Shown: positions 11,137 through 56,818 of the stretch, in pieces
How the letters are laid out: the number at the start of each line of letters is the position of its first letter
How positions within the stretch are numbered: the first letter of the stretch is position 1
Source: Fidelibacterota bacterium
GTDB lineage: Bacteria > Fidelibacterota > UBA8477 > JABMPR01
DNA length: 64,000 bases
Assembly (NCBI GenBank): GCA_018650445.1
Contig: JABIFX010000023.1
Location: forward strand, 1-64,000
Reading direction: 5' to 3'
The notes under the pieces: model-generated
Database searches by the model: none
What the model was told of the DNA's origin: nothing
What the model saw: the letters and a program-made list of their open reading frames with translations, nothing else
Position numbers and translations under genes: made by a program

Positions 11137-11143
11137 TGAGCAC

Positions 11144-12970: not shown

Positions 12971-12972
12971 GG

Positions 12973-14487: not shown

Positions 14488-14490
14488 GAT

Positions 14491-15543: not shown

Positions 15544-15554
15544 TTCACACCTCC

Positions 15555-19049: not shown

Positions 19050-19058
19050 TGCATCCTC

Positions 19059-21767: not shown

Positions 21768-21788
21768 CTACCAGTTGGCTATGTGAAA

Positions 21789-21817
21789 GGGGGACGAACT
21801 TTAAGTGTCCATCCCCC
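21789..21817 (-). terminator. Intercistronic hairpin (11-bp stem, 7-nt loop) between the CBM-rich gene and the TonB receptor gene
   Basis: Minus-strand RNA GGGGGAUGGAC-ACUUAAA-GUUCGUCCCCC followed by UUUCAC; the two non-Watson-Crick positions are G-U wobbles only on the minus strand. Confidence 0.6.
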
Positions 21818-21850
21818 CGCACAGTTTATTTCTCTAAAACGTCAACAATC

Positions 21851-24379: not shown

Positions 24380-24414
24380 TGTGTAACCTCCTTGTGTTGT
24401 TGTATCTTCATAAT

Positions 24415-32866: not shown

Positions 32867-32905
32867 TCATTGTATCTAAATATCAAGGGGTTAAGCTTGT
32901 CTATT

Positions 32906-38237: not shown

Positions 38238-41200
38238 ATGATGGCAAAGCTTGGCAGACTCTCAATGCAGTCGCTCAGTTTTATGACAATTTTTATGGTA
38301 GGGATGATGTTCTTATCTACTGCAACCTATGCGGCGGATCATGTCCCCACCGTGTCTATCCAATCAGATGCTGCTGGTCAAAAGCTAATGGTTGATGGTG
38401 AGGATTTTATGATCAATGGTATGAACTGGGATTATTTCCCAATTGGTACCAATTACTCCTATTCCCTTTGGAACCAACCCGATCATATCATCGAGGCAGC
38501 TCTCAGCCGTGAGATGTCCCTTCTTAAAGGTATGGGTGTAAATACGATACGTATGTACACCGGTGTTCAGCCAAGATGGGTAAAATACATTTACGAAGAG
38601 TATGGTATTTATACAGTACTGAATCACTCCTTCGGCCGCTATGGATTTAATGTCAATGGCGTTTGGAAACCAAATGTCGATTATTCTGATCCAGACTTTC
38701 AGAAAGCGCTCATGGCTGAAGTTATGGGTGTTGTTAATGAATTTGAGGGCGTCCCTGGAGTCCTGATGTGGTTATTGGGCAATGAAAATAACTATGGTCT
38801 TTTCTGGGAGGGTGCAGAAACAGAGGATATTCCCGTTGGGGAAACTGTCCAAACGGTTAGAGCTCGCCATATGTACGCACTATTCAGTGATGCAATTGAT
38901 GCTATTCACAAAGTTGACAACAAACGTCCCGTGGCCATTTGTAATGGTGACCTTCTCTTTGTAGACATCATCGCTGAAGAAATTAAAAATTTGGATATCC
39001 TGGGTAGCAATGTGTATCGAGGTAGCTCATTTACAGATTTTTTCCAGGTGGTGAAGGAAAAACTCGACGTTCCTGTTTACTTCACTGAGTTTGGTGCTGA
39101 TGCTTTCAATGCCAAGGATATGCACGAAGACCAGGAAAATCAAACCAAATACCTCCTGAGCAATTGGCAGGAAATCTATGAACAGGCCTATGGTAAAGGC
39201 CTGATTGGTAACTCAATCGGTGGTCTGACCTTCCAGTTTAGTGACGGTTGGTGGAAATTTGGCCAAACCAGCAATCTTGATGTCCACGACATCAACGCTT
39301 CCTGGGCCAATGGTGGCTATCCCGCTGACCTTGAAGAGGGTCAGAATAATATGAATGAGGAATGGTTCGGGATCTGTGCCAAGGGTCCCACTGATATAGA
39401 AGGATTGTATCAGCTATATCCAAGGGCTGCATACTATGCACTCAAGGAAGCCCACGCTCTTGATGTGTATGCCGCCGATATGGGTCTAAACGGTATCAAG
39501 GATCATTTTCGCTCTATTCAGCCAATGAATGCCATCCTATTGGCTCGCGGTGACAAGGCTGCCCTGGCATCAGAAGCCGGAAGTCTCGGTCGTATCAAGG
39601 GTCTGAGAATCGAAATGGAAACATATAGCACTGGAGCAAAACATACCACAACTCCAGATGATCCTGTCCAGGGTAGCACTTCAATGCCCATTTCACAGGG
39701 TTTTGATCATATGCAATCTTACTACCTCTCGGTAGAAGCTACCCCTTCCCCAAATGTAACGGGTGAGGTCACATTCAATGTTTTGGGACACGTTGCCCAA
39801 ACCTTGATTGACGAAATTTATTACGAAAAACGCGGAAGACCCCAATCAGTCCTCACTGATGATGGATCTGTGACCCTTGATGGCGTTGATCGAGTTAGAA
39901 TCTACAATGCTTCCATCACCTGGGATGATGACTTCTTTCGGTTAGAAGGTTTCTTCCGAACCGGTCATTATCACTGGGGCTATGAAGGTGATTTCTTTGG
40001 CCTCTATCCAGAAGCCAACTATGGCCCAAACCTGGACACATATGATGGTAATGCTCCATTGGGCATAGAAATAGAAGGTAAAAGGAGACTAAGTGGTTTA
40101 AAATTAGCTTTCGGTCCTGAACTCTGGTGGGGAGCAAATCCAGCCTACCTGGTCAAATATACCAAATCCAAGGGTCCATTTACCCTGACAGGTGTTTTCC
40201 AGGAAGATCTGGATAGTCAAGCACCTGCTATCACCTCTTTTGCCGTGCCTGTTCCTCCCACCAAAAAAGCAACACTTCACTTAGAAACCACTCGCGGAAA
40301 TCTGGGTGTTGAGCTTGGTGGTATTTGGTCAGGAGCCACAAAGGTTGATGAAGTCTTTCAGATCGCTGAAGGTACTTCTGGTAATTATGAAATTTTACAG
40401 GATACCGTGAGAGCAGCTGATGCCTGGGGTGGTAAATTCAAGATCACCTATTCCAGGGGACGTCTGAATTGGTACCTGCAAGGTGCCTCCATGGGTATCG
40501 TAGCCAACGGTGGTCCCACGGCAACCCAAACCTTTGCTGGCTGGCATCTAAAGGATAGTGGTAGCGGTAACCAGAACAACATCATTACTGGTTTGACCAT
40601 TCAGGCCGGCAATTTACAGATAGCCCCGAATTTTTTATGGCAGAAACCACTGATTGGCCCTGTTCCCAGTGATGTCCAACAACCTGGCCGTCCAAGAAAT
40701 GTCATTTCTGATCCTTTTGCAGTTCGCGGAAATCGTGAAACCACTGCTTTTGAGATGCTGCTGACTTACGATCCAACACCTGAGACCTGGTTCTATGAAT
40801 GGAACAATGATCTTGCTGAAGATGCGCGCTTTGCTGCCAGTCTGGATTATGTCTACAGGAAGCATCCTACCACACAGGATGCAGCTATTGGTATCTTTGC
40901 AGATGGACGTACGACCTTTGCCTTTCCAGGGGCTCCTCCAGCCCAGGATATATGGGAATTGAATGGTAGAGTTATCTCTAAATTCAACTCAAAACTGGGA
41001 TTGATCTTAAACTTCTATCAGGGTCTTGGTGAAGCCAATGGAAACGATTCGCTTCTCATTGAACGCTTTGGTGGTGACCTCAGACTTGTAAGTGGTTCAA
41101 AGAAACTCATGGCCATAGCCAAATTTAATGACTGGGGTCCATACGATTATCATCGTGATTACAACCTCACCTACCCCATGCAGCTTGTACTTGATCTCTC

Positions 41201-41417
41201 AACCGTGGTTGGTAAAGCCGGCTGGTGGGATCTACCTCAGACACGTCTCGGTGTGAGCTACACATACCGTACCCTGGATTCAAATTCACCTCGATACTGC
41301 CCTGAGATGATGCTCAATGATCTCAATGAATTGGAATGCAATCCCGATGCACTTGGTGCAGAGGAAGGCAACGAGTGGCAGATCATGACATACATGCACC
41401 TGAACATAGGACTATAG
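38238..41417 (+). CDS. TIM-barrel glycosidase (clan GH-A/GH2-like) fused to a probable C-terminal outer-membrane beta-barrel
   Basis: Signal peptide; FMINGMNWDYFPIGTNY, MWLLGNENNYGLFWEG (NE acid/base), VPVYFTEFGADAF (E nucleophile); ~600-aa C-terminal region of alternating aromatic/polar strands with no second catalytic domain. Confidence 0.7.
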   Translation: MMAKLGRLSMQSLSFMTIFMVGMMFLSTATYAADHVPTVSIQSDAAGQKLMVDGEDFMINGMNWDYFPIGTNYSYSLWNQPDHIIEAALSREMSLLKGMGVNTIRMYTGVQPRWVKYIYEEYGIYTVLNHSFGRYGFNVNGVWKPNVDYSDPDFQKALMAEVMGVVNEFEGVPGVLMWLLGNENNYGLFWEGAETEDIPVGETVQTVRARHMYALFSDAIDAIHKVDNKRPVAICNGDLLFVDIIAEEIKNLDILGSNVYRGSSFTDFFQVVKEKLDVPVYFTEFGADAFNAKDMHEDQENQTKYLLSNWQEIYEQAYGKGLIGNSIGGLTFQFSDGWWKFGQTSNLDVHDINASWANGGYPADLEEGQNNMNEEWFGICAKGPTDIEGLYQLYPRAAYYALKEAHALDVYAADMGLNGIKDHFRSIQPMNAILLARGDKAALASEAGSLGRIKGLRIEMETYSTGAKHTTTPDDPVQGSTSMPISQGFDHMQSYYLSVEATPSPNVTGEVTFNVLGHVAQTLIDEIYYEKRGRPQSVLTDDGSVTLDGVDRVRIYNASITWDDDFFRLEGFFRTGHYHWGYEGDFFGLYPEANYGPNLDTYDGNAPLGIEIEGKRRLSGLKLAFGPELWWGANPAYLVKYTKSKGPFTLTGVFQEDLDSQAPAITSFAVPVPPTKKATLHLETTRGNLGVELGGIWSGATKVDEVFQIAEGTSGNYEILQDTVRAADAWGGKFKITYSRGRLNWYLQGASMGIVANGGPTATQTFAGWHLKDSGSGNQNNIITGLTIQAGNLQIAPNFLWQKPLIGPVPSDVQQPGRPRNVISDPFAVRGNRETTAFEMLLTYDPTPETWFYEWNNDLAEDARFAASLDYVYRKHPTTQDAAIGIFADGRTTFAFPGAPPAQDIWELNGRVISKFNSKLGLILNFYQGLGEANGNDSLLIERFGGDLRLVSGSKKLMAIAKFNDWGPYDYHRDYNLTYPMQLVLDLSTVVGKAGWWDLPQTRLGVSYTYRTLDSNSPRYCPEMMLNDLNELECNPDALGAEEGNEWQIMTYMHLNIGL

Positions 41418-41486
41418 ATCATGAGTATTCGAAACAATACCTCAGGGTCAAAAGAGTCAGTTCTCAAAGGAGCAGGAGAATTCAAA

Positions 41487-44400
41487 ATGATTTTAAAGAA
41501 TAAAACCAACAAATATGCCATCCTCACCTTGATGGTACTCGCAGGGTTGGTTTCCTGTGAAAGGGAGTTAGGTGTATTGGCACCAGCCCCCTTCCCAACC
41601 GATGCAGAAGTATTTATCGATGGGTTTGGCCCCAGCATTGAACCCAAGTCATTCTCTGGGACAAAACTAGATGCGCTGCAAACCGATGATACAGACACAT
41701 ATGATGGTAGTTCATCAATCGTTATCACCATCCCCGGCCCTGGAGATCCCTCTGGCTCAACATGGTCTGGTGGCGCGCTGGTTGCCGGTGCTGCCCGCGA
41801 CTTGAGTGGTTACAATGCATTGACCTTTTATGCCAAGGCCAACAAGGCACTCACACTGAATACTGTCGGATTTGGTAACGACAATGAAGCACCAAATCCA
41901 TATGTGGCTGAGATCGCCAATTTGCCTATCACGACGTCGTGGATGCAGTACACCATCCCTATTCCATTAGCTGAGAAGCTGGTTCAGGAACAGGGTATGT
42001 TTTATTACTCAGAAGGTCAGGAAGACGGAGAAGGTGCTACGATCTGGCTGGATGAAATCCAGTTTGAATCGTTGGGAACCATTGCCCACCCCAGCTTCAG
42101 TTTTGCTTCTGACGAATTAAGTGTCTATCAAAATGCCATTATCTCCATCCCCTCAATTACCGTTTCATTTGATGTGGGTGGTTCAAATGTGGATGTAAGC
42201 GCATCCTCTGAATACCTTACCTTTAGTTCATCAGACACCAGTATTATCGGTGTAGATACTGATGGAACCTTGACAGCAAAGAACCTTGGCGATGCAACAG
42301 TATACGCATACCTCGGGGAAAACTCAGTTTCGGATTCTCTGGTTATTAGCGTTGGGGAAGCACCACCGGAACCTGCCACAGCTGCACCGACTCCAACCGT
42401 TGCTGCTGATAGCGTGGTTTCCATCTATAGCAATGTCTACACAAGTGTCACTACACCAGACTTCTATACTTATTGGGAATTCTCAACAGCAGCTATACAG
42501 GAAGTAAGTCTTGATGGCAATGACGCCATGCAATTCCTGAATCTGAATTTTGCTGGAATAGATTTCTCATCAAGTGATCTGGTTGACGCGTCAGCCATGA
42601 CCACCTTCCATATGGATGTCTGGACCCCAGATCCAAGTGCAAGCCCAGCTGCATTTAAGATCCTCCTCGTTGATTTTGGACCTGATGGCGACTATGGTGG
42701 TTCAGATAACTCATCACATGAGTTGTCCATTACTGCTTCCTCCACACCTGCCCTGGTCAGCGATGAATGGATGTCCCTGGATATCCCGATTTCCTCTTTC
42801 ACAGGTCTAACCTCTCAGCATAATATCGCCCAGTTGGTCATTTCAGGAGACCCAAACACGGTCTATCTGGACAATATCTACTTCTGGGATAACGGCGACG
42901 TTCCTCCCCCACCTGTAGGTGGCGGTCCTTCTAGTGCAGCTCCAACTCCAACAGCCCATGCTGATAGTGTGATATCCCTTTACAGTGATGCTTACACAGA
43001 TGTAGCTGTTGATACCTGGGCGACTGGTTGGGAATTTTCCACTACCGTTTTTGAAGAGGTACAGGTTGAGAATGACGATGTGATTCTTTACACTGAGCTC
43101 AACTTCAATGGTATTGAATTCACAACTACACCAGTAGATGCCTCAGAGATGACCCGTTTCCATATGGATATCTGGACACCAGACCCTACTGCTTCTCCTG
43201 CTGATTTCAAGATCAAGTTGGTAGATTTTGGAGCCAATGGCGTCTACGATGGTGGAGACGATTCTGAGCACGAACTCACTTTCACCTCAAGCAGCACGCC
43301 TGCTCTTGCCACTGAGTCGTGGGTGTCCCTTGATGTAGCCATAGATGATTTCTCAGGTTTAACCTCCAAATCAAATCTGGCCCAGATGATCATCTCCGGA
43401 AGTGATGGACTGGATTCCATTTATGTAGATAATGTATACTTCTACATTGGTGCAGGAGGTGGTGGCACAGCCACAACAAGTGGTCCTGCAGCCCCTGCTA
43501 CTACACCCACAGTTGCTTCGGAAGATGTGATTTCCCTCTTTAGCAATGCCTATACAGATGTCACTGTGGACAATTGGGCGACTGGTTGGCAATGGTCAAC
43601 CGCTGTCCTTGAAGAGGTCCAGGTAGCCGGTGATGATATCAAACTTTACACTGCTCTCAATTTCAATGGCATTGAGTTTACCAGCGAGCAGTTGGATGTC
43701 TCAGAAATGACACATTTCCATATGGATATCTGGACACCAGATCCTACAGCCTCACCTGCAACTTATAGTGTCAAGCTCATTGATTTTGGTGCCAATGGCT
43801 CCTATGACGGTGGTGATGATTCTGAACATGAATTGATGTTCACATCAAACAGCAACCCGGCTATTGAGACAGGGGCATGGGTAAATATTGATGTTTCCAT
43901 GACTGCTTTTTCAGGTTTGACTGGTCGTGAGCATCTTGCTCAGATGGTCATCTCAGCCAGTGAGGGTCTGGATTCAGTTTATGTGGACAATGTCTATTTT
44001 TACAAAGAATCTGGTGGTAGCGGAACAGCTACTGAACCTGAAGCTCCTGCAACAGCACCCACAGTGGCAGCAGCAGATGTGATCTCCCTCTTCAGCAACG
44101 CCTATACAGATGTTACTGTGGACAACTGGGCAACAGGCTGGCAATGGTCAACCGCTGTCCTGGAAGATGTTCAGGTAGCCGGTGATGATGTCAAACTGTA
44201 CACTCTGCTTAATTTCAATGGTATTGAGTTTACGACTCAGACGATTGATGCTTCTGCAATGACCCACTTCCATGTGGATATCTGGACACCGGATCCAACA
44301 GGTGCTCCAGCTACTTTTAACGTAAAACTCATCGATTTCGGTGCCAATGGCTCATATGATGGAGGTGACGATTCTGAGCACGAACTGATCTTCACATCAA

Positions 44401-44561
44401 GCAGTTCTCCGGCTATTGCGACTGGGGAATGGGTTAGCATTGAGGTTCAACTTACTGATTTTAGCGGATTAACAGCACGCTCCCACATAGCCCAGATGGT
44501 CATCTCAGCCAGCGATGGTCTCAATACCGTGTATATGGACAATGTGTACTTCCACAAATGA
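41487..44561 (+). CDS. Surface lipoprotein with four tandem beta-sandwich-like (candidate glycan-binding) repeats and a Big2-like domain
   Basis: MILKNKTNKYAILTLMVLAGLVSCE lipobox start (ORF track starts at 41421); four ~150-aa repeats [V/A]IS(L/I)(F/Y)S(N/D)(A/V)YT(D/S)V...(M/V)D(I/V)WTPDP...DNVYF. Confidence 0.75.
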   Translation: MILKNKTNKYAILTLMVLAGLVSCERELGVLAPAPFPTDAEVFIDGFGPSIEPKSFSGTKLDALQTDDTDTYDGSSSIVITIPGPGDPSGSTWSGGALVAGAARDLSGYNALTFYAKANKALTLNTVGFGNDNEAPNPYVAEIANLPITTSWMQYTIPIPLAEKLVQEQGMFYYSEGQEDGEGATIWLDEIQFESLGTIAHPSFSFASDELSVYQNAIISIPSITVSFDVGGSNVDVSASSEYLTFSSSDTSIIGVDTDGTLTAKNLGDATVYAYLGENSVSDSLVISVGEAPPEPATAAPTPTVAADSVVSIYSNVYTSVTTPDFYTYWEFSTAAIQEVSLDGNDAMQFLNLNFAGIDFSSSDLVDASAMTTFHMDVWTPDPSASPAAFKILLVDFGPDGDYGGSDNSSHELSITASSTPALVSDEWMSLDIPISSFTGLTSQHNIAQLVISGDPNTVYLDNIYFWDNGDVPPPPVGGGPSSAAPTPTAHADSVISLYSDAYTDVAVDTWATGWEFSTTVFEEVQVENDDVILYTELNFNGIEFTTTPVDASEMTRFHMDIWTPDPTASPADFKIKLVDFGANGVYDGGDDSEHELTFTSSSTPALATESWVSLDVAIDDFSGLTSKSNLAQMIISGSDGLDSIYVDNVYFYIGAGGGGTATTSGPAAPATTPTVASEDVISLFSNAYTDVTVDNWATGWQWSTAVLEEVQVAGDDIKLYTALNFNGIEFTSEQLDVSEMTHFHMDIWTPDPTASPATYSVKLIDFGANGSYDGGDDSEHELMFTSNSNPAIETGAWVNIDVSMTAFSGLTGREHLAQMVISASEGLDSVYVDNVYFYKESGGSGTATEPEAPATAPTVAAADVISLFSNAYTDVTVDNWATGWQWSTAVLEDVQVAGDDVKLYTLLNFNGIEFTTQTIDASAMTHFHVDIWTPDPTGAPATFNVKLIDFGANGSYDGGDDSEHELIFTSSSSPAIATGEWVSIEVQLTDFSGLTARSHIAQMVISASDGLNTVYMDNVYFHK
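42379..44559 (+). repeat. Four ~555-bp tandem coding repeats
   Basis: Units begin near 42379, 42936, 43492 and 44043; units 3 and 4 are nearly identical over long stretches. Confidence 0.85.
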
Positions 44562-45835
44562 TAGACCCAAAAGACATAAGCAGACTTAGTTCCAACGCTG
44601 GTTACAGCCAGTCTGACTCCCTCGGTCGGCGTATTGTCGACCGCTGGGAATCCAAACCTCTGGCCGATTCTGTACTCCACCTCATCTGGCACAAGCATCA
44701 GATCTCCCGAGCTGAAATTGCCCGGGAATTGGGGCTGTCTAGATCAACTGTCACTGAAGTTGTGAAAGAACTACTCAATTCTGGTTTTGTAAAAGAGGTT
44801 GGTAGTGGGATCTCTAGTGGAGGTCGCAAGCCCATCGTTCTGGAATTCCAAAATGAAGCAAGAATCATCCTGGGCATAGACATTGGTGCGACCCATGTTG
44901 CAGCCACGCTCATTGACCTTAGCGGGGAAGTTCTCGCCTTCGTGAAACAAGACCACTTTGTCCGTACAGATCCCAAAGGAACTCGAAATTTGGTGTTCGA
45001 GATCTGTGATGCGATTCTGAGTGAGATCAAAAATGGATCTAAACGACTGCTGTGCATAGGCGTAGCCCTCCCCAGTCCCGTTGATCCCAATCATCCCGAG
45101 TGGTTATCTGAAGTTGTTATCCCTGCCTGGCGCGGTCATAGTGAGATCGATTTACTCCACCGCCATTTTAACGTACCCGTCTATGTGGACAATGATGCCA
45201 ATCTCGGTGCGCTGGCTGAACATCGCTGGGGCGCTGGTCGAGGTGTCAAAGATCTAACCTATGTAAAACTGGGCTATGGTGTTGGTGCTGGATTCATTCT
45301 CAATGGTGAGGTCTACCGCGGTGGCACTGGAATCGCCGGAGAAATGGGACACATCCCCATTAAGTCTGATGGCGAACTCTGTGAATGCGGACTCAAGGGA
45401 TGCCTGGTAACACTGGTAGGTGGCAAAGCAATGGAAACACGCGTTGAGGAGTTGCTCTCCAAATATCCAGATAGCATGCTTGCAGACAAGCTAGCGACGC
45501 TGAAAAATATCGAAATTGCAGCCGGTAAGCAGGATGCTCTCGCGCTTCAACTTTTCAAGGAAACAGCTGAGTATGTGAGTATTGCCATTACAGGCTGGAT
45601 CAATATGATGAATCCACGCCGCGTAATCCTTGGTGGCGATCGGAAAGAACTCCAACAGCAGATATTAAACCCCATTCAGGTAAAGATTCGAGATTGCTCT
45701 ATCGTGGGATCTGTTGACAGCACAGAAGTGAGAACTGGAGAACTGGGCGAAAAGGCCGAAAGTATGGGTGCTGCCACCCTTGCATTGGAAGAAGTTTTCT
45801 CTGAACCCGGTTTCTATATGCGAAAATCATTATAA
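44558..45835 (+). CDS. ROK family transcriptional regulator with N-terminal HTH
   Basis: RAEIARELGLSRSTVTEVVKELL HTH; ILGIDIGATHVAATLIDLSGE; CECGLKGCL zinc motif; overlaps the upstream stop (ATGA). Confidence 0.92.
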   Translation: MIDPKDISRLSSNAGYSQSDSLGRRIVDRWESKPLADSVLHLIWHKHQISRAEIARELGLSRSTVTEVVKELLNSGFVKEVGSGISSGGRKPIVLEFQNEARIILGIDIGATHVAATLIDLSGEVLAFVKQDHFVRTDPKGTRNLVFEICDAILSEIKNGSKRLLCIGVALPSPVDPNHPEWLSEVVIPAWRGHSEIDLLHRHFNVPVYVDNDANLGALAEHRWGAGRGVKDLTYVKLGYGVGAGFILNGEVYRGGTGIAGEMGHIPIKSDGELCECGLKGCLVTLVGGKAMETRVEELLSKYPDSMLADKLATLKNIEIAAGKQDALALQLFKETAEYVSIAITGWINMMNPRRVILGGDRKELQQQILNPIQVKIRDCSIVGSVDSTEVRTGELGEKAESMGAATLALEEVFSEPGFYMRKSL

Positions 45836-45849
45836 GGAAGAATCATTTT

Positions 45850-46677
45850 ATGTCACTAAAATCTAAAATCATTCTACTTCCGCTCCTGACCCTGTCCCTT
45901 ATTCCTTCTGTTCAGTGCAACAATAATGCTGAACCGGAAGAAAAGAAATGGGAGATCATCTGGCAGGACGAATTTGAAGGACCCCTTGGCCAATCACCAG
46001 ACTCTGTCAACTGGATGTATGACACCTGGGGCAATGAATCTGGCTGGGGCAACAATCAGTTGGAATATGATACAGACCGACCTGAAAACGTTTCCCTGGA
46101 TGGTGCTGGTAATCTCGCCATCGTAGCTCGTAAGGAATCTTACGCTGGTAAAGGCTATACCTCCGCCAGAATTACAACTCAGGGTCTCAGAGAATCGACA
46201 TACGGGCGTTTCGAAGCCCGCATCAAGCTACCCTGGGGACAGGGATTGTGGCCAGCCTTCTGGCTTCTGGGAAGTGATTTCAACACTGCTGGATGGCCCC
46301 ATTGTGGGGAGATCGATATCATGGAATATCGTGGGCAGGAACCCAGTATCATTCACGGAACGCTTCATGGACCGGGATACTCTGGTGGCCAGGGCGTGGG
46401 AACTTCCTACCTATTATCAAACGCACGCTTTGATACTGATTTCCATACTTTCGCAGTCGAGTGGGATCTGGAAGGTATCAGTTGGTTCGTTGATGATGTC
46501 CTCTACCAAACCCTTGACAGTAATGATGTTAATGGAGACTGGGTCTACGATCATCCCTTCTTCATCATTCTGAATCTCGCTGTAGGCGGTGGCTATGTCG
46601 GTTCCCCTGATGCTGACACAGTTTTCCCCCAAACTATGCTCATAGACTATGTCAGAGTCTACCAGGAAGTTGAATAA
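45850..46677 (+). CDS. GH16 laminarinase-like lipoprotein
   Basis: YTSARITTQGLRESTYGRFEARIKLPWGQGLWPAFWLLG; GEIDIMEYRG. Confidence 0.92.
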   Translation: MSLKSKIILLPLLTLSLIPSVQCNNNAEPEEKKWEIIWQDEFEGPLGQSPDSVNWMYDTWGNESGWGNNQLEYDTDRPENVSLDGAGNLAIVARKESYAGKGYTSARITTQGLRESTYGRFEARIKLPWGQGLWPAFWLLGSDFNTAGWPHCGEIDIMEYRGQEPSIIHGTLHGPGYSGGQGVGTSYLLSNARFDTDFHTFAVEWDLEGISWFVDDVLYQTLDSNDVNGDWVYDHPFFIILNLAVGGGYVGSPDADTVFPQTMLIDYVRVYQEVE

Positions 46678-46737: not shown

Positions 46738-48705
46738 ATGAGTGGAAAGAAGCATTTTCAAACTGCTGCTGAAGATCGAATTTCTTTGCAACAAAAAATG
46801 GCATACTCTGTAGGTATGCTGGTCAATAACCTCCAGGCGGCAGCCATGCCAGCCATGGTGGTTATTCTGAACCTTGGACTTGGAATGGATGTCCTCTGGG
46901 TTGGATTGATTGGTGCTATCCCCCGTATATTTGATGCCATCTCTGATCCCCTGGTTGGATACATTTCAGATAATTCCAGAACCAGATGGGGTCGACGACG
47001 ACCATTCATATTCGCTGGGGCAATCACTGCTGGACTCATCTTTGCCATCATGTGGCAGCTCCCTTCCGGCTATATTGATTTCCTTAAAAAAGCACCTGTC
47101 CAGGAACATCAGAGCATATCAATTGAGCAGTCCCCTGTGGTTTTGAATAATGCAGGTGGAGTTGATTTAACCTACGACGCTGGTATTCAATCTGAAGCAC
47201 AGTTTGTGTTCTATGGTCCAAAAATGCTGGCCATCGATGCTGATGCAGGCATCTCAACTGACCTGGATGGATTTCCTCAAATAGAACTAAACGTGATTCG
47301 TCCTGAAGGATCTGAGCTGAGTCTAATAATTTATGAGTCTGCGACTTCAGCATCTGAAAATTCTGCTGACGGTGAAACCTATGCAATCAATCTCAGCGAT
47401 GCACAACTAAAGGACGAAGGGGGCAACCTCTATAAATTTGACCTTGCTGACTTACAGATCATTGAATCAGAGATTGCTGTCACTGGGAATGGTACTCTAG
47501 ACCTCCAGGCTATTGATAAAATCGCAGTTGAATTCGCAGGTTTAACCGGCGCTGGCACTGCCACGATCCAGTCCATTAAATTCAAGAAGAGCGACAGCTT
47601 CTATGTCTATTGGTTCTGGCTCTTTCTCGGCATGTCCATCCTATTCTTCCTGGCCTATACCGTTTATGCTACCCCATTTGTAGCCTTTGGATACGAAATG
47701 ACAGCCGATTACCACGAACGCACACGACTGCATGCATTTGCCAATACAGTTGGACAGCTCGCCTGGTTGGGCGTGCCCTGGTTCTATGCCATCATGTCCA
47801 GTACCTTATTTAGAGATACCGTTCATGGTGCCCGCTCTCTGGCCCTGATTGTCGGTGGTGTTGTTGCACTTTTTGGTATTATCCCAGCCATTTTCCTCAA
47901 GGAAAGACCGACATTGACTCCGGTAGTCAATGCAGGCAAAGGTATGATGGCCAACATGAAAGAGTTTTTCGCTGGTATCAAAACAACTCTGAAATGCTCA
48001 CCTTTCGTTAAGATCTGTGGAACCACCTTCCTGGTATTCAACGGATTTCAACTGGGTATGTCCTTCTCCATTTATGTTATGATCTATTACCTCTTTGGAG
48101 GAAATGATGGGGATGCTGGTAAACTCATGGGCTGGTACGGTATGCTTACCTCCATATTTACACTGGCAGTCATTCCACTGACGGGACTCATTGCTACCCG
48201 AATTGGAAAACGCCAAACTTTTATGATCACCATATCCCTGTCCTTATTGGGATACGCACTCAAATGGGTCGGCTACAATCCCGACTATCCATACATGCTC
48301 CTCATAGCAACACCTTTTGTCGCCTTTGGTACTGGCTCCCTTTTCACACTCATGGGATCAATGATCTCCGATGTGTGTGATTATGATGAGTTAGAGACTC
48401 ACCAGCGCAGAGAAGGTGTCTTTGGCGCCATCTATTGGTGGATGGTGAAAGTTGGTATGGCACTGGCCGGTATCCTCACTGGAGTCCTGCTGAAAGTTGC
48501 TGGATTTGATGTGGCACTGGGAGCTGCCCAGTCTGTAAGTACCCTTTTCTGGATCCGCATCTTCGATGTGGGTGTACCCCTGGTTACCTCAGCAATTGCC
48601 CTCTTCATTATGATGAGTTATGAAATCACTGAAACCAAAGCCCACGAGATCAGATTTGAACTTGAAAAGAGACGTGGAAAAGTTGGTGAGACAGAAGGAG
48701 TTTAA
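46738..48705 (+). CDS. GPH/MFS sugar transporter with ~170-aa periplasmic domain inserted between TM3 and TM4
   Basis: ISDPLVGYISDNSRTRWGRRRPFIFAGA GPH signature; TM resumes at FYVYWFWLFLGMSILFFLAYTVYATPFVAFGYEMTADYHERTRL after the insert. Confidence 0.9.
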   Translation: MSGKKHFQTAAEDRISLQQKMAYSVGMLVNNLQAAAMPAMVVILNLGLGMDVLWVGLIGAIPRIFDAISDPLVGYISDNSRTRWGRRRPFIFAGAITAGLIFAIMWQLPSGYIDFLKKAPVQEHQSISIEQSPVVLNNAGGVDLTYDAGIQSEAQFVFYGPKMLAIDADAGISTDLDGFPQIELNVIRPEGSELSLIIYESATSASENSADGETYAINLSDAQLKDEGGNLYKFDLADLQIIESEIAVTGNGTLDLQAIDKIAVEFAGLTGAGTATIQSIKFKKSDSFYVYWFWLFLGMSILFFLAYTVYATPFVAFGYEMTADYHERTRLHAFANTVGQLAWLGVPWFYAIMSSTLFRDTVHGARSLALIVGGVVALFGIIPAIFLKERPTLTPVVNAGKGMMANMKEFFAGIKTTLKCSPFVKICGTTFLVFNGFQLGMSFSIYVMIYYLFGGNDGDAGKLMGWYGMLTSIFTLAVIPLTGLIATRIGKRQTFMITISLSLLGYALKWVGYNPDYPYMLLIATPFVAFGTGSLFTLMGSMISDVCDYDELETHQRREGVFGAIYWWMVKVGMALAGILTGVLLKVAGFDVALGAAQSVSTLFWIRIFDVGVPLVTSAIALFIMMSYEITETKAHEIRFELEKRRGKVGETEGV

Positions 48706-48706
48706 T

Positions 48707-50398
48707 ATGCAGAAAACAACACGACATATCATCTTCACGCTTGTTCTTGTCAGTTTGGTTCTCATGGGTTGCGCAATGCTGCCAACCTCTGAGCCACAAG
48801 CACCAGCTCTAAGTACATCTGAAATTATCCTCACCTCTGCAAATGGTGACCGCCAGGCATTGCAGGAAAATGTGGAATTTACCAATGGTCAGGCCACGGG
48901 CGTGGTTGTTCAGGTATTTCCAGACCAGATAAAACAAACCATTGACGGGATCGGAACCTCCTTCACTGAATCATCCGCCTATGTCCTTGCCCACCTTGAC
49001 CCAGCTGACCGCATGAAGGTTATGCAGAATATCTATGGCCAGGATGGTGCTAATTTTTCACTCACACGCACCCATGTCGGTGCCTGCGATTTTTCAGTAG
49101 AAGGAAAGTATTCCTATGCTGAGCAGGCTGGTGATACGGCTCTGACCTCTTTCACCATTAAAGAGGATACCGAGGGTTTTGCCCTTGCTGACCACCCTGG
49201 AGTAAAGGACACTACCTATGACCTCCTCCCCATGATCCAGGAGGCCCTCAAGATCAAACAATCACAGGAAGATTCAGAACTAAGGATCATTGCCTCTGCC
49301 TGGACAGCTCCTGCCTGGATGAAGGACATTGAGGACTACTATCAGCCTATGACTGCTGAGAATGGCTGGCAAGGTTCAGGGGGATCACTTAAGCCTGAGT
49401 ATGTAAGCACCTATGCTGACTATCTCATCAAGTATTTTCAGGCTTATGAGGATGCCGGTGTTGACATCTGGGGGCTTACTCCAGTCAATGAACCCCACGG
49501 CAACAATGGTCAGTGGGAAAGCATGAACTTTTCTCCCGAGAGTCAGAGTGAATTTGTTCAACATCATTTAGGTCCTGGTCTGCGAGATGCCGGATTGGGT
49601 GATGCCAAATTGTTGATCTTTGATCAGAATCGTGATGGTATGGAGGAATGGTCAAATGTCCTCTTTCCTGCCGATAAGGAAAATAAATTTATCTATGGCA
49701 TGGCTGTACACTGGTATGAAAGTACCATTGGAGTGTACGAAGACATTTTCGATATGGTCCATGCAAAATTCCCTGACTACACCATCATTCATACTGAAGG
49801 CTGTATTGATGACCTGGGCAAGCCTGCACCAGCTGACTGTTGGGATCCAGCAGGTCGCACCGAGACCAACTGGTTCAATAATGACGAATTCTGGTGGACC
49901 CCCAGCGCTTCGGATTGGGCTTATGCAGTCCCCTGGGTTGGTGATGGCGTTAAAGATCATCCACTCTACACACCTGTCCACAGATATGCTCGCAATATCA
50001 TTGTGAGTCTCGATCATTGGGCCACAGGCTGGGTGGATTGGAATATCGTCCTGGACCAACAAGGTGGACCCAACCATGTCGGCAATTTTTGTGGTGCTCC
50101 TATCATGATAGATACTGAATCACAGGATGTTTACTACACCCCCATTTTCGATGTCCTCTCTCAATTTAGTCGTTCTATCAGGCCTGGAGACCGGGCAGTG
50201 CAAACTGCGAAGCGTATTGCCTCATTGAATGACGATGATATCCACTTTTGCGCAACCATCAATGAGATGGGTATGCTGAGTGTCCAGGTATTGAATACTT
50301 CAGCAAGTCCAATTGATTACAAACTGGAAATTGGCGATCAATTCGCTGAGATCCATATTCCTGAAAATTCCGTCCAAACAGTACGTGTAGAGCTCTAG
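48707..50398 (+). CDS. GH30 family glucanase, lipoprotein
   Basis: MQKTTRHIIFTLVLVSLVLMGCA start after the preceding stop; TIDGIGTSFTESSAYVLAHL; WGLTPVNEPHG; IIHTEGCID. Confidence 0.92.
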   Translation: MQKTTRHIIFTLVLVSLVLMGCAMLPTSEPQAPALSTSEIILTSANGDRQALQENVEFTNGQATGVVVQVFPDQIKQTIDGIGTSFTESSAYVLAHLDPADRMKVMQNIYGQDGANFSLTRTHVGACDFSVEGKYSYAEQAGDTALTSFTIKEDTEGFALADHPGVKDTTYDLLPMIQEALKIKQSQEDSELRIIASAWTAPAWMKDIEDYYQPMTAENGWQGSGGSLKPEYVSTYADYLIKYFQAYEDAGVDIWGLTPVNEPHGNNGQWESMNFSPESQSEFVQHHLGPGLRDAGLGDAKLLIFDQNRDGMEEWSNVLFPADKENKFIYGMAVHWYESTIGVYEDIFDMVHAKFPDYTIIHTEGCIDDLGKPAPADCWDPAGRTETNWFNNDEFWWTPSASDWAYAVPWVGDGVKDHPLYTPVHRYARNIIVSLDHWATGWVDWNIVLDQQGGPNHVGNFCGAPIMIDTESQDVYYTPIFDVLSQFSRSIRPGDRAVQTAKRIASLNDDDIHFCATINEMGMLSVQVLNTSASPIDYKLEIGDQFAEIHIPENSVQTVRVEL

Positions 50399-50508: not shown

Positions 50509-53500
50509 ATGACTTTGAAATCTTCCTCAAAACCAACATTTGAGTTGAATAAAAACGGTGAGTTTGTCATAGAGAACTACAACTCAACCAAACCATTCGC
50601 CAGCTTTTTCCCAGGAATTGCTGGCAAGATGGGAATTCCCATGTGGGTCTTTTATGTAAATAGAGGCCAGGGAATCTGCAGTATGGGTATTCAGGACAAG
50701 GAACATCCCATCATGGAGTTCCTCCCTGCGAACTGGGCTTATCAATTGGTATCGAGCCAGGGATTCAGAACATTTATTAAATTTCCAGCAGGCTCAGGTC
50801 TTGAATTCTATGAACCTTTTCAAGATCATTACCGGGACAGAGAAATTGTTCGAACCCAGAGCATGCGTATCTCCCCCTCCCACCTTATTCTGGTTGAAGA
50901 AAATGAAACTCTTGGTCTAAGATTTACAGTAGAATACTACTCAGTTCCTGAAGACAGCTATGCAGGTTTGATTCGCAAACTTCATATCACCAATCTGAAT
51001 AATATTGACATCTCATTTGAAGGTCTAGATGGTCTCCCACTGATCATTCCCTACGGTATCGACAATGCTGGACTCAAAACCATGCGTCGCCTTATGGAAG
51101 CCTTCGTTGAAGTCAAAAATTTCAAGGAAAAAGCACCCCTCTTCAAGGCGAAAGTGAAACCAACAGATCGCCCCGACGTGGAAATTCTAGAGCAGGGTAA
51201 CTTTTATGTAGGCTTTGAGCATGGCGCTGGAGGTGCACAGCTATTGGATGCCATTGTGGATCCTGAGCTTATCTTTGGAAACCAAAATGACTATAGCTTC
51301 CCCGAAAAGTTCCTGGAACAGTCTATTGGGGATATCCTAGATCACCAGGCTACTGAAAACCGTCTTCCCTCAGCAATGTCATTGTTCAACAAGACACTTG
51401 GAGCCGGGAAAACCTATACTGTCACCTCAATCATTGGACATGCCGACTCCCGGGAAGAATTGAACCGTCTCATCCCATCCATTACTAAACTTGATTATAT
51501 CAATACGAAAATTCAAGACAGCATTAGCATTATTGATGATCTTACTCAGAATAATCTGGTAGTGAGTAGCGACTCGACCTTCGATATGTATGTCAGACAG
51601 AATTTCCTGGACAATGTGCTGCGTGGTGGATTCCCTCACACCTTTAAGGGTGATGATTCAGAATCCGTTCTCCACCTTTATTCCCGAAAACATGGTGACC
51701 TGGAACGGGATTATAATGATTACCGTATCACCCCTTCCTATTATTCACAGGGGAATGGTAATTTTCGAGATATCAACCAGAATAGACGTTCCGATCTGTT
51801 TTTCAATCCTGATGTGCGATCTGGAAATCTTGAACACTTCGTTAATTTGATCCAACTTGATGGATTCAATCCTCTGGTCATAAAGGAAATTCGATACACC
51901 CTGGAAGATGTGATCAAGGGCAAGGCTGTCCTTGATAGCCATCTTTCAAAATCAGCCAGTGACAAGGCTCTGGCCTTCCTGGAAGACGAAGTCACTCCTG
52001 GTGAGTTCCTATCCTATCTGGAGACCCTGGAAGTCAATTTTCCCACCAATGCAGATAGACTGCTAGGGGAATTGTTACCTCACTGCAAAAAGATCCATGA
52101 TACGGACTTTGCAGAAGGTTACTGGTCAGATCACTGGACCTACAACATGGATCTGCTGGAAAATTATCTCAGTATCTATCCTGAAAATCTTAAGTACATC
52201 CTTCTGGACCACCAGAAGTTCACCTTTCATGATACCCCATACAAAGTCCTTCCCCGAGATGATAAGTATGTCATCTGGGATGATAAAAAGATGCAATTAA
52301 ACGCACTGGTACATGATGACGAGAAAGCAGCTCTCATCGCCTCTCGAGAAAACGATAAAAACCTGGTTCGCACTGAAAATGGCCGGGGTGTTGTTGTTGA
52401 GACTTCTCTGTTTATCAAGCTCATTTCAATCATCACCAACAAGATCGCTTCCCTTGATCCATCTGGGATTGGTGTTGAGATGGAAACGGACAAACCCAAC
52501 TGGTATGATGCCTTAAATGGGATTCCAGGACTTATGGGTTCCAGTCTAAGCGAAGCTCTGGAAATCAAGAGACACGCAGTTTTCCTGGTTGATTTTCTCC
52601 AGAATTCGACCTCTCTGGAAACGGATATTTCTGTATTTGAAGAAATAGCTGACTTTATGGAAACCGTAAAGATCCTGTTGCATAATGAGATGGGCCCCTT
52701 CGAATATTGGGATGCTGCCACCTCCCTCAAAGAAGCCTATCGTGAAAAGACGGTGTATGGACTTAGTGGCAAAACCAGAGCTATCAAGATATCCTGGCTA
52801 GTTGAATTTTTATCGGCCTGTTTGACCAAGATCGATGAAGGCGTGGATAAAGCCTGGAATGGTGATGGAACGATCCCATATACCTACTTCACTCATCGTC
52901 CAACGGATTACGAAGTTATCGAGGAGATCGATGAAAATGGCCGCTCCAGAACCAAAACGAATTCCAAAGGTTTTGCCTGTTTTCGCGTAAAGGCTTTTAA
53001 ACGTGAGACACTGCCTCTCTTCCTTGAAGGACCCGTACACTTTCTTCGGACTCAACCGGGATATGATGTTGCCAATAAGGTGACTCAACAGATCCGGAAG
53101 AGTGGTCTCTACGACCAGAGACTCAATATGTACAAGGTCAATGAATCCCTAGCTGATCAACCCATGGAGATTGGACGTGCACGGACATTTTCACCCGGTT
53201 GGTTTGAGAATGAATCGATCTGGTTGCATATGGAATACAAATACATGCTGGAGATGCTAAGGAATGGTCTTTATGAGACTTTCTATGAAGATTTTCGTCA
53301 TGTCTTCATCCCCTTTCTCAATCCAGAAGTATATGGACGAAGCATCCTTGAGAACTCTTCATTTCTAGTAAGTAGTGCCAATCCCAACCCAGGCTTACAT
53401 GGAACTGGATTTGTGGCTCGATTGAGTGGGGCGACTGCAGAATTCATCCAAATTCTAATGGAAATGACCGTTGGATCAGCACCTTTCTCCGTAGCGAGGA

Positions 53501-53835
53501 ATGGGGAGTTGACCTTTAGTGTCAAACCGGTTCTACCAGCCTGGTTATTTACCAAACAAACGCAAAATCTACATTTGACTGGAGAAGGCAAGACCCAATC
53601 CGTGACACTTCCTGAGCACAGTTTCAGTTTTATGCTTCTCGGAGATATCCTGGTTACCTATCTCAATCCAAAAATGAAAAATACTTATGGAACTGATGGG
53701 GTCTCACCCACGGAATGGAATCTTTACGATGATGCTGGCAATGTTCAACACGTCACTGGTACCAACCTGAATAGTGATGCAGCCCTGCTAATCCGTTCAA
53801 AGCAAATACACCGAATGGAAATAGTACTTAACTAA
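50509..53835 (+). CDS. GH149/GH161-like beta-1,3-glucan phosphorylase
   Basis: 1108 aa, no signal peptide; FASFFPGIAGKMGIPMWVFYVNRGQGICSMGIQDKEHPIMEFLPANWAYQLVSSQGFRTFIKF resembles the N-terminus of large beta-1,3-glucan phosphorylases. Confidence 0.8.
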   Translation: MTLKSSSKPTFELNKNGEFVIENYNSTKPFASFFPGIAGKMGIPMWVFYVNRGQGICSMGIQDKEHPIMEFLPANWAYQLVSSQGFRTFIKFPAGSGLEFYEPFQDHYRDREIVRTQSMRISPSHLILVEENETLGLRFTVEYYSVPEDSYAGLIRKLHITNLNNIDISFEGLDGLPLIIPYGIDNAGLKTMRRLMEAFVEVKNFKEKAPLFKAKVKPTDRPDVEILEQGNFYVGFEHGAGGAQLLDAIVDPELIFGNQNDYSFPEKFLEQSIGDILDHQATENRLPSAMSLFNKTLGAGKTYTVTSIIGHADSREELNRLIPSITKLDYINTKIQDSISIIDDLTQNNLVVSSDSTFDMYVRQNFLDNVLRGGFPHTFKGDDSESVLHLYSRKHGDLERDYNDYRITPSYYSQGNGNFRDINQNRRSDLFFNPDVRSGNLEHFVNLIQLDGFNPLVIKEIRYTLEDVIKGKAVLDSHLSKSASDKALAFLEDEVTPGEFLSYLETLEVNFPTNADRLLGELLPHCKKIHDTDFAEGYWSDHWTYNMDLLENYLSIYPENLKYILLDHQKFTFHDTPYKVLPRDDKYVIWDDKKMQLNALVHDDEKAALIASRENDKNLVRTENGRGVVVETSLFIKLISIITNKIASLDPSGIGVEMETDKPNWYDALNGIPGLMGSSLSEALEIKRHAVFLVDFLQNSTSLETDISVFEEIADFMETVKILLHNEMGPFEYWDAATSLKEAYREKTVYGLSGKTRAIKISWLVEFLSACLTKIDEGVDKAWNGDGTIPYTYFTHRPTDYEVIEEIDENGRSRTKTNSKGFACFRVKAFKRETLPLFLEGPVHFLRTQPGYDVANKVTQQIRKSGLYDQRLNMYKVNESLADQPMEIGRARTFSPGWFENESIWLHMEYKYMLEMLRNGLYETFYEDFRHVFIPFLNPEVYGRSILENSSFLVSSANPNPGLHGTGFVARLSGATAEFIQILMEMTVGSAPFSVARNGELTFSVKPVLPAWLFTKQTQNLHLTGEGKTQSVTLPEHSFSFMLLGDILVTYLNPKMKNTYGTDGVSPTEWNLYDDAGNVQHVTGTNLNSDAALLIRSKQIHRMEIVLN

Positions 53836-53870: not shown

Positions 53871-55712
53871 ATGAGCAATTTTGAAAAACGAATTTCTGAG
53901 CTAATGGCAAAGATGAACCTGGACCAGATGGTGGGCCAGATGGTTCAGCCAGAGCGTCAGTTCATCACACCTGAACAAGTAAAAAAACACCATATCGGTT
54001 CTGTCCTCAGTGGTGGAGGATCTGTCCCCGGGGACAATAAGCCTGAGGATTGGATCGCCATGAATGATGAATATTGGGCCGCCTCCATGGAAGCAGATGA
54101 TGAACACCTCGCTATTCCTATTGTCTATGGTGTGGATGCCATACATGGGAACTCCAATGTGACTGGTGCAGTGGTTTTCCCTCATAACATTGGGCTTGGC
54201 GCTGCGAAGGATCCTGAAATGATGGAACGTATTGCCAGGACCACAGCACGAGAGATTGCAGTAACAGGTGTTGAATGGACATTCGCACCGACTTTGGCAG
54301 TCGCCAGAAACAGCCATTGGGGTCGTACCTATGAAAGCTATAGTGAAGATCCCCAAATCGTTACTGAGTATGCACCTCGCTTCGTCAGGGGCCTACAAAG
54401 CGACCTGGGTGAGGAAAGTGTGATCGGTTGTGTTAAACATTTTATTGGTGATGGTGCTACCGTTCACGGTATCGACCAAGGTGATGCCCAGATCGATGAA
54501 GAAGAATTGCGTCGTTTGCACCTGCCACCCTATCAAGCTGCCATTGATGCTGGCGTCCTCACTGTCATGGCCTCTTTAAACAGTTGGAACGGCCTCAAGT
54601 GCCATGAGCATCGCTATTTACTCACAGATATCCTTAAAGATGAGTTGGGATTCAGAGGTTTTATCGTCTCTGATTGGGATGGTATCGATTGCCTCGCAGA
54701 AGATTTTGGCAAAGCTGTTGAACTGGGTCTGAATTCGGGTATGGACATGTTCATGGTGACTGAAAAGTGGGAAGAATTTATTCAACACACCAAGACTCTG
54801 GTCAATTCGGGTCGCATTCCAAAAAAACGTATTGAGGATGCTGTTAGAAGAATCCTCAGAGTAAAATTTGAGTTCGGATTGTTTGACAAACCCAGACCCG
54901 CCGAGCGTAAACTCTCAAAACAGACTGAGATCTTTGGTTCTAAAGAACATCGTGATGTGGCTCTTGAGGCTGTGCGCAAATCTTTGGTTATGTTAAAGAA
55001 CGATGACGCCCTCCTTCCCCTGGAAAAAAGTACCCGCATCCTGGTAGCTGGTAAAAATGCCAACAACCGAGGCCATCAGTGTGGTGGATTCACAGTGAAC
55101 TGGCAGGGAGCGATATCAAACGAGGAAATCGTTGGCGGACAATCCATCTGGGAAGGCATCCAGACGCTGGCCCCCAGCGCCGTATTAAGTGACAATCTTG
55201 AAGGCAATGAAGCCAACCCGGATCAGCATGATGTGGCCATCGTTGTTATTGGAGAGACACCCTATGCAGAAATGCTCGGTGATATTCGCGTTCCTGGATT
55301 ACTACAGGAGTATTCGACCTTTCCCAATAGCACGCCAATCCCTCTAGATGATTCAGAGGTGGCCGAAGTATATGCCAGCAATCTGTATCTCCATGAGATG
55401 CATCCTGAAGATATTGCAACCATAAATAATATTACTTCTAGGGGAGTTCCTGTGGTGGCTGTCATGTTGGGTGGACGACCCCTCGTTGTTGAAAAAGAAC
55501 TGGAAGCTTCATCTGCATTTGTTATGGCCTGGTTGCCAGGATCTGAGGGTCATGGTGTTGCCGACGTGCTCTTTGGTGATTTTGATATTCAGGGAAAACT
55601 GAGTTTCTCCTGGCCAAAATATGACAATGAGAACTGGAATGTAGGCGACCCAAACTACAATCCTCGTTTCCCCTATGGCTTTGGTCTCACATACGATAAA
55701 ACAAATAATTAG
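53871..55712 (+). CDS. GH3 family beta-glucosidase without signal peptide (probably cytoplasmic)
   Basis: MNLDQMVGQMVQPERQF; VYGVDAIHGNSNVTGAVVFPHN; GFIVSDWDGI. Confidence 0.93.
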   Translation: MSNFEKRISELMAKMNLDQMVGQMVQPERQFITPEQVKKHHIGSVLSGGGSVPGDNKPEDWIAMNDEYWAASMEADDEHLAIPIVYGVDAIHGNSNVTGAVVFPHNIGLGAAKDPEMMERIARTTAREIAVTGVEWTFAPTLAVARNSHWGRTYESYSEDPQIVTEYAPRFVRGLQSDLGEESVIGCVKHFIGDGATVHGIDQGDAQIDEEELRRLHLPPYQAAIDAGVLTVMASLNSWNGLKCHEHRYLLTDILKDELGFRGFIVSDWDGIDCLAEDFGKAVELGLNSGMDMFMVTEKWEEFIQHTKTLVNSGRIPKKRIEDAVRRILRVKFEFGLFDKPRPAERKLSKQTEIFGSKEHRDVALEAVRKSLVMLKNDDALLPLEKSTRILVAGKNANNRGHQCGGFTVNWQGAISNEEIVGGQSIWEGIQTLAPSAVLSDNLEGNEANPDQHDVAIVVIGETPYAEMLGDIRVPGLLQEYSTFPNSTPIPLDDSEVAEVYASNLYLHEMHPEDIATINNITSRGVPVVAVMLGGRPLVVEKELEASSAFVMAWLPGSEGHGVADVLFGDFDIQGKLSFSWPKYDNENWNVGDPNYNPRFPYGFGLTYDKTNN

Positions 55713-55723
55713 GCCTTAGGACC

Positions 55724-56818
55724 ATGACAATAAAGCCCTATCATTTCCTTAGTCTACTGTTACTGGCAATAATGCTGGTAGCCTGTTATCATCAATCAGT
55801 TTTACCAGAGGCATCTCCTGCGATTTCAACTGAGCAGATGTCTACCGATAGCACATCCTCATCAAAAGAATCGCCCTTCGTGAAACGTACTTTCTCACCC
55901 TACCTCGGTGAGCAATGGATCGGGAAAGCAATCTCTTATGGCTGTTATCGTAAGGGTCAGGCTCCTGGCGTTAAGGATCCAAGTGAAGCTGAGATTCTTG
56001 AAGACCTCAACATCCTCAAAGAACACTGGAATCTCATTCGAGTTTATGGAGCTGATGATGCAGCGGAGCGTGTGTTGAAAGTGATACACGAGAATCAGCT
56101 GCCTATCAGGCTTATGCTAGGTATCTGGCTTGAGAATGAAACAAAACGTCCTGAGCGCAAAGCAGAGAACCTTGAACAGATCAACCGGGGCATTGCATTG
56201 GCCAACCAATATCCCGTTGAAGTGATCGCTATTAATGTAGGCAATGAGTCCCAAGTGGAGTGGTCCTGGCATCATATGGAAATGGATGTTTTGATTCAAT
56301 ATATCCGCATGGTCCGCCAGAATACCAAACAGCCCATCACCACATCAGACGATTATAATTTCTGGAACAAACCAAAGAGTCAAACCGTGTCTGATGAAAT
56401 TGATTTTATCGCGCTCCATGCCTATGCCCTCTGGAATGGTCAGCTATTGGATTATGCAATGACCTGGACTGATAGCGTATTTAAGGACATCAAATCCAGA
56501 CATCCCCATCAGGATATTGCCCTCACAGAGACAGGTTGGGCCACTACCTATAATCCAACCAAAATGGGACCTGGCGAGCAGGGCTCATTGATCAAAGGAA
56601 AAGTCGGCGTCGCCGAACAACAACAATTCATTACGGAATTTTGGGTCTGGGCTGAAGCCAACAAGGTCACAACCTTCCTCTTTGAGGCTTTTGATGAGCC
56701 CTGGAAAGGTGGCGGTGAGCAATCCGGCCCAGACGAAGTAGAAAAACATTGGGGCATCTTTTATGAAGATCGCAGCCCCAAACAATCTTTTATCAATTAT
56801 CTCGCTGAAGGCGAGTAA
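55724..56818 (+). CDS. GH17-like beta-1,3-glucan-active lipoprotein
   Basis: Lipobox LVAC; LIRVYGADDAAERVL; EVIAINVGNESQVEWSW; IALTETGWAT; TFLFEAFDEPWKG. Confidence 0.88.
   Translation: MTIKPYHFLSLLLLAIMLVACYHQSVLPEASPAISTEQMSTDSTSSSKESPFVKRTFSPYLGEQWIGKAISYGCYRKGQAPGVKDPSEAEILEDLNILKEHWNLIRVYGADDAAERVLKVIHENQLPIRLMLGIWLENETKRPERKAENLEQINRGIALANQYPVEVIAINVGNESQVEWSWHHMEMDVLIQYIRMVRQNTKQPITTSDDYNFWNKPKSQTVSDEIDFIALHAYALWNGQLLDYAMTWTDSVFKDIKSRHPHQDIALTETGWATTYNPTKMGPGEQGSLIKGKVGVAEQQQFITEFWVWAEANKVTTFLFEAFDEPWKGGGEQSGPDEVEKHWGIFYEDRSPKQSFINYLAEGE

Follow-up and report, generated by a model that had tools for sequence, protein, structure and literature searches.

Can a sugar symporter carry its own substrate receptor? 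When bacteria take up sugars with high affinity, the usual explanation is an ABC importer with its binding protein, or SusCD. The question is raised by a gene in a 64,000-nucleotide stretch of DNA (the window: positions 1 to 64,000 of contig JABIFX010000023.1, assembly GCA_018650445.1) from a member of Candidatus Neomarinimicrobiota/Fidelibacterota. The gene (46738-48705, forward strand) encodes a 655-residue symporter of the GPH/MelB type, a branch of the major facilitator superfamily (MFS), and a domain of about 175 residues is inserted between its transmembrane helices (TM) 3 and 4. This domain (residues 113-287; 47074-47598, forward strand) is predicted to be a periplasmic beta-sandwich with a fold like that of family 11 carbohydrate-binding modules (CBM11). 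The reading that we favour, and to which we give about an even chance, is that the module is a putative tethered device that captures glucan and hands it to a cation-coupled GPH importer of beta-1,3-gluco-oligosaccharides.

The reading frame is intact, and profile searches place it in the GPH family. Pfam MFS_2 matches it in two stretches (E = 4.6e-55, 187 bits against a cut-off of 27), with MFS_1 as the sole other Pfam match, while the GPH profile TIGR00792 gives E = 3.9e-49 and 167.5 bits, under its curated cut-off of 231, in a match that is split in two by the insert. A full-length AlphaFold2 model, based on an alignment of the window protein and its GTDB relatives (pLDDT 80.9, pTM 0.83), has TM3 at residues 88-105 and TM4 at residues 286-320, with strands between them. 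Foldseek matches this model to MFSD2A and to MelB (TMt 0.73-0.81 for MelB), as expected of a MelB fold. Insert-less homologues from the same phylum match residues 2-112 and 290-648 of the query in segments that are just two codons apart, and the insertion is therefore clean; in other insert-less homologues, the insertion site reads MWQLPxGHSxxFYFWxFL. An earlier sequence-only reading of the window had reported some 170 non-membrane residues between TM3 and TM4 of a GPH permease, at 47085-47600, and this proved nearly exact.

The distribution of charge in the loops puts the insert on the periplasmic side. The TM2-TM3 loop contains the basic stretch SRTRWGRRRP (46975-47004, forward strand; five Lys/Arg in SRTRWGRRR) and is cytoplasmic. 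Leaving the insert out of the count, there are 27 Lys/Arg on the side of the N-terminus (the N-terminus itself, loops 2-3, 4-5, 6-7, 8-9 and 10-11, and the C-terminus) and one in the opposite loops. A cytoplasmic placement is ruled out by these counts, and from charge topology together with homology to MelB we infer that the insert is periplasmic, as the sequence-only reading had it. Hydrophobicity within the insert peaks at a KD19 value of 1.07, compared with about 1.9-1.96 for TM3 and TM4, so that it contains no segment of transmembrane strength.

The protein resembles MelB and other GPH:cation symporters (Pfam MFS_2, TIGR00792) in its fold, in the basic cytoplasmic TM2-TM3 loop and in an Asp pair in TM2. 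The pair, D66 and D70 (46933-46947, forward strand), is invariant in our alignment (A1) and corresponds to the cation-site Asp pair of MelB: in a phmmer alignment made through an insert-less homologue (L057), the GPH motif RIFDAxSDP aligns with RIWDAINDP of MelB. This makes it likely that the transporter is cation-coupled. The difference lies in the TM3-TM4 loop, which is short in known structures of the family and accommodates a 175-residue beta-domain in the window protein.

Modelled on its own, the insert is all-beta, with 10 strands (pLDDT 78.8, pTM 0.79), and the two models rule out a disordered or helical insert. Foldseek places CBM11 of Clostridium thermocellum first among structures in the PDB (1v0a, 2.4e-5; 6r31, 3.0e-5; probability 1.00); 6r31 is a complex with a beta-1,3-1,4 tetrasaccharide. 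The next neighbours are CBM28, the CBM-like domains of GH50 agarases, CIA30-type NDUFAF1 (7zkq, 1.1e-3; 7zkp, 2.3e-3) and CBM30. The agarase domains belong to enzymes, and NDUFAF1 is an assembly factor and a weaker match. The sequence-only reading had guessed at a sandwich of the CBM/CIA30 type, and the modelling that it proposed has borne out both the fold and the neighbourhood. Since the TM-scores against 1v0a lie near 0.57 (0.57/0.59), they support the fold class and not membership of CBM11. In a Pfam search none of 17 inserts matched CBM11 at E 1, CIA30 appeared below threshold in 2 of the 17, and no PDB entry was matched by sequence; the insert segment of the window (173 residues) has no Pfam match, and the module belongs to no curated Pfam or NCBIfam family. 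CBM11 (from C. thermocellum Lic26A-Cel5E), CBM28 and CBM30 share a predicted fold and a beta-glucan context with the window module, but there is no sequence match to them, and the module has no Trp and sits inside a membrane transporter. A Foldseek comparison with viral proteins returned mainly phage tail fibres and the like, and was uninformative.

Relatives of the module that can be recognised by sequence are found on enzymes. When the insert profile was run against 393 Planctomycetota genomes, the module was also found in reading frames of about 670-710 residues (E 1e-17 to 1e-22), which look exported and consist of a catalytic part resembling GH50 agarases (4bq2, 1e-36) followed by the module at the C-terminus. 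The search of Kiritimatiellota added four GH50-like proteins of the same architecture with weaker matches (E 1e-8 to 1e-16). The module therefore shows a trait typical of CBMs, that of being appended to carbohydrate-active enzymes; in the window it is fused to a symporter instead. An alignment of transporter and enzyme modules has six invariant residues common to both: Gly160-Pro161 (47215-47220), Glu200 (47335-47337), Glu213 (47374-47376), Gly250 and Asp255 (47500-47502), all on the forward strand; of these, Gly160-Pro161, Glu200, Glu213 and Asp255 are shared with the planctomycetal set of enzymes. Glu183 (47284-47286, forward strand) is present in 12 of 13 sequences. In four planctomycetes (L060, L064, L065 and L066), the GH50-like gene is the divergent neighbour of an insert-less GPH gene, with about 140-170 bp between the ends of the two frames; GH161 occurs in the fetched loci of L060, L065 and L066, and in L064 the GH50-like gene is followed by a LacI-type regulator and a GH161-like gene. 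Thus, one and the same module can be a neighbour of the transporter or, in a different lineage, part of it.

The insertion had been described as foreign to standard GPH architecture. It is indeed a real insertion, although it is not peculiar to this genome. It was found in 15 of 245 Fidelibacterota genomes, every one of them in a single genus, and in all 13 of the other full-length orthologues of that genus (42-75% identity across the insert), counts that rest largely on metagenome-assembled genomes. The search for the same insertion in GPH homologues, which the sequence-only reading had called for, also recovered it in 7 of the 125 genomes of the Cloacimonadota search, in one of 80 genomes from the phylum of L048 ('bacterium Bsp_15') and in two Planctomycetota, L052 and L174. 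In Fidelibacterota, the module is seen in the transporter alone. In L174 (340-3021, reverse strand) the GPH frame is 904 residues long and has two insert modules in tandem, and in L052 (9873-10517) the module contains an additional segment of about 43 residues that is probably helical. Pairwise dN/dS is 0.07-0.13 for the insert and 0.004-0.07 for the TM core, rough values in that many dS estimates are near saturation. The insert is under purifying selection (dN/dS about 0.1), and the orthologues together with dN/dS rule out an assembly or frameshift artefact. The open literature searched, with subscription journals and preprints largely outside the search, contained no account of a CBM-like domain inserted in a sugar transporter, whether of the GPH family or another.

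A second CBM-like domain has been gained independently in the same loop in Gemmatimonadota. In L074 (Gemmatimonadales), the TM3-TM4 loop contains an insert of another kind (10313-10960), which has no sequence relation to the Fidelibacterota type. It matches the profile of the tandem CBM-like repeats encoded in the window (A6) with the order reversed, profile positions 105-166 coming first and 1-86 after. The search of the phylum gave the same result for all 16 insert-bearing GPH proteins, with profile positions 86-166 followed by 1-86; a strict non-overlap rule had flagged 4 of the 16 as permuted, ranges that meet at position 86 having counted as overlap. The inserts of L074 and of the Gemmatimonadota loci L136-L152, all permuted, have about 20-30 extra residues within the first half. 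Arrays of tandem CBM-like repeats are encoded upstream of GPH in the same locus (L074), and the Gemmatimonadota insert is circularly permuted, as though a piece running from the middle of one repeat to the middle of the next had been lifted out of such an array.

A tree of the transporter core, with the inserts excised, separates the two types. The transporters with the Gemmatimonadota type of insert form one clade (SH-aLRT 100) amid insert-less Gemmatimonadota and far from the first type, whose bearers sit amid insert-less Planctomycetota and Kiritimatiellota. The test rejects one shared origin for the two types (AU p = 8e-7). Within the first type, L174 groups with the main clade, while the L052 transporter lies outside it, and a topology uniting L052 with the rest is also rejected (AU p = 9e-5). 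The module was therefore transferred, gained repeatedly or lost in some lineages.

The neighbouring genes, all on the forward strand, point to a cluster for beta-1,3-glucan, principally through GH16 and GH161, and agree with the beta-glucan context assumed at the outset. The glycoside hydrolase (GH) 16 enzyme immediately upstream (45850-46677; Pfam 2.9e-25) is closest in the PDB to the beta-1,3-glucanase 2hyk (1.5e-81). Downstream lie a GH30 enzyme (48707-50398; Pfam 1.6e-55; start placed at MQKTTRH), a GH161-type beta-1,3-glucan phosphorylase (50509-53835; closest to the GH161 phosphorylase 9qqk, 1.3e-217), a GH3 beta-glucosidase (53871-55712; Pfam 1.4e-77) and a GH17-like enzyme (55724-56818; Pfam 1.8e-6). 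Judged by eye, the GH16, GH30 and GH17 proteins start with lipobox-like, lipoprotein-type signals, and the GH161 and GH3 enzymes have no visible signal peptide. GH161 enzymes act on beta-1,3-gluco-oligosaccharides, and phosphorolysis needs a degree of polymerisation of 3 or more (PMC6484121). From this, import of intact oligosaccharides is predicted, and the GPH protein is the sole transporter recognised within the cluster.

How might the parts work together? A CBM11-like module, of a family that otherwise sits at the C-terminus of GH50-like enzymes, would have entered the periplasmic TM3-TM4 loop of a GPH symporter. Laminarin-type glucan would be cut by the lipoprotein glucanases GH16, GH17 and GH30; the module would bind the chains at the entrance to the transporter, raising their local concentration, and pass them to the outward-open cavity. 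The oligosaccharides would then be imported by the symporter and finished in the cytosol by GH161 and GH3. In this scheme, we infer the substrate, the binding of glycan, the hand-off and the coupling to cations.

Several observations weigh against such a receptor. The TM-scores against CBM11 are only moderate, and no significant sequence link was found between the insert and CBM11, the Pfam CBMs or the CBM-like repeats of the locus itself. The 175-residue insert has no Trp and just five Tyr. Conservation is strongest at carboxylates, Gly and Pro, residues that may have a structural role or bind ions, and the GH50-linked module and the tandem repeats are themselves putative glycan binders. Finally, insert-less GPH proteins occur in similar clusters of Ignavibacteriota, Calditrichota and part of Gemmatimonadota, so that the module can be dispensed with for that substrate.

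The main rival explanation is that the module binds not sugar but one of the periplasmic or lipoprotein glucanases (GH16, GH17 or GH30), and so would cluster hydrolysis at the importer. There is a parallel in the peptide transporters PepT1 and PepT2: they contain inserted Ig-like domains that bind trypsin, and transport is not appreciably impaired when these domains are removed (PMC4597091). These are likewise beta-sandwich domains in the extracytoplasmic part of an MFS importer, for which a docking role of this kind has been proposed; they differ in being an Ig-like pair in the POT family with trypsin as the proposed ligand, whereas the window protein is a GPH transporter with its domain in the TM3-TM4 loop and CBM11 as first Foldseek neighbour. 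Docking would also suit the acidity of the insert (28 Asp/Glu to 10 Lys/Arg) and the lipoprotein-like signals of several enzymes of the locus. However, the module has its homologue in a domain fused in cis to an enzyme, and L048 retains the insert although neither GH30 nor GH161 was found in the roughly 20 kb covered. The Gemmatimonadota insert, moreover, is another domain altogether, one that belongs with the CBM-like repeats, and a docking site for a single enzyme would not readily evolve from two unrelated domains. On balance, we regard enzyme docking as unlikely.

Two further readings rank below both capture and docking. The module might have no ligand and act as a structural or regulatory lid, by stabilising the transporter when it faces outward, by mediating oligomerisation or by gating the cavity. 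The cross-family conservation, mainly of acidic residues, Gly and Pro, would suit this, as would the lack of Trp in the window's insert and the existence of close insert-less relatives of the transporter; but it would leave unexplained both the homology with an enzyme-appended module and the independent recruitment of a second CBM-like domain, and we think it rather improbable. That the insert is a near-neutral passenger, a mobile module tolerated in a permissive loop without any function in transport, seems to us very improbable. The loop does tolerate a single domain, a tandem pair or a permuted domain, and evolution is faster in the insert than in the TM core; against this, the insert has been kept under purifying selection in every other full-length orthologue of the genus, and across several phyla.

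If the capture reading is correct, a cation symporter that brings its own capture domain would represent a third way of taking up sugars with high affinity, in bacteria that feed on laminarin-type glucans. It is tempting to go further, albeit with rather less than even confidence, and to propose that secondary transporters include a new class, equipped with a tethered glycan receptor. In two or more GPH lineages, independently, different CBM-like domains would have entered the same periplasmic loop, and what was a proton or sodium symporter would have become a self-contained receptor and transporter for beta-glucan oligosaccharides that does the work of a substrate-binding protein (SBP). The convergence on the same loop argues that its position is functional, and the half-plus-half permutation in Gemmatimonadota hints at a route by which genes within one cluster can give rise to a fusion of this kind.

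The remaining genes of the cluster, also on the forward strand, include a ROK-family regulator (44558-45835; Pfam 1.6e-54) and two proteins with CBM-like repeats. One is lipoprotein-like, with four tandem repeats of about 167 residues (41421-44561), and the other is secreted and has a type IX sorting tail (56931-60305; Por_Secre_tail, 1.1e-9). The repeats of the two proteins (about 145-168 residues, ending in VYxDNxYF) match no Pfam family over cut-off and no PDB sequence, and are widespread in beta-glucan clusters of several phyla. A common origin with the transporter insert is rejected: profile comparison gave nothing (probability below 1%), and not one of the 17 inserts is matched by the repeat profile. 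At 38238-41417 lies an exported GH-A-type enzyme of 1059 residues (Pfam Glyco_hydro_2_C, 1.7e-8), whose C-terminal 500 or so residues resemble, by eye, an outer-membrane beta-barrel; the enzyme is possibly fused to a porin.

The sequence-only reading had suggested that the inserted domain could take the role of an SBP or SusD, a role that is putative. Elsewhere in the window, outside the cluster, there are a TonB-dependent receptor and an SBP gene. The latter encodes an SBP_bac_1 protein (29270-30643, reverse strand) near a second carbohydrate cluster, and an ABC system for sugars may thus be present as well. This second cluster (8388-24433, reverse strand) encodes GH5-CBM6, GH16-malectin and PorV-like proteins, the TonB-dependent receptor and a CBM9 protein, with type IX sorting tails. 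A protein with CotH kinase and lamin-tail domains and a type IX sorting tail is encoded at 32870-36460, beside GH3 and GH5 genes.
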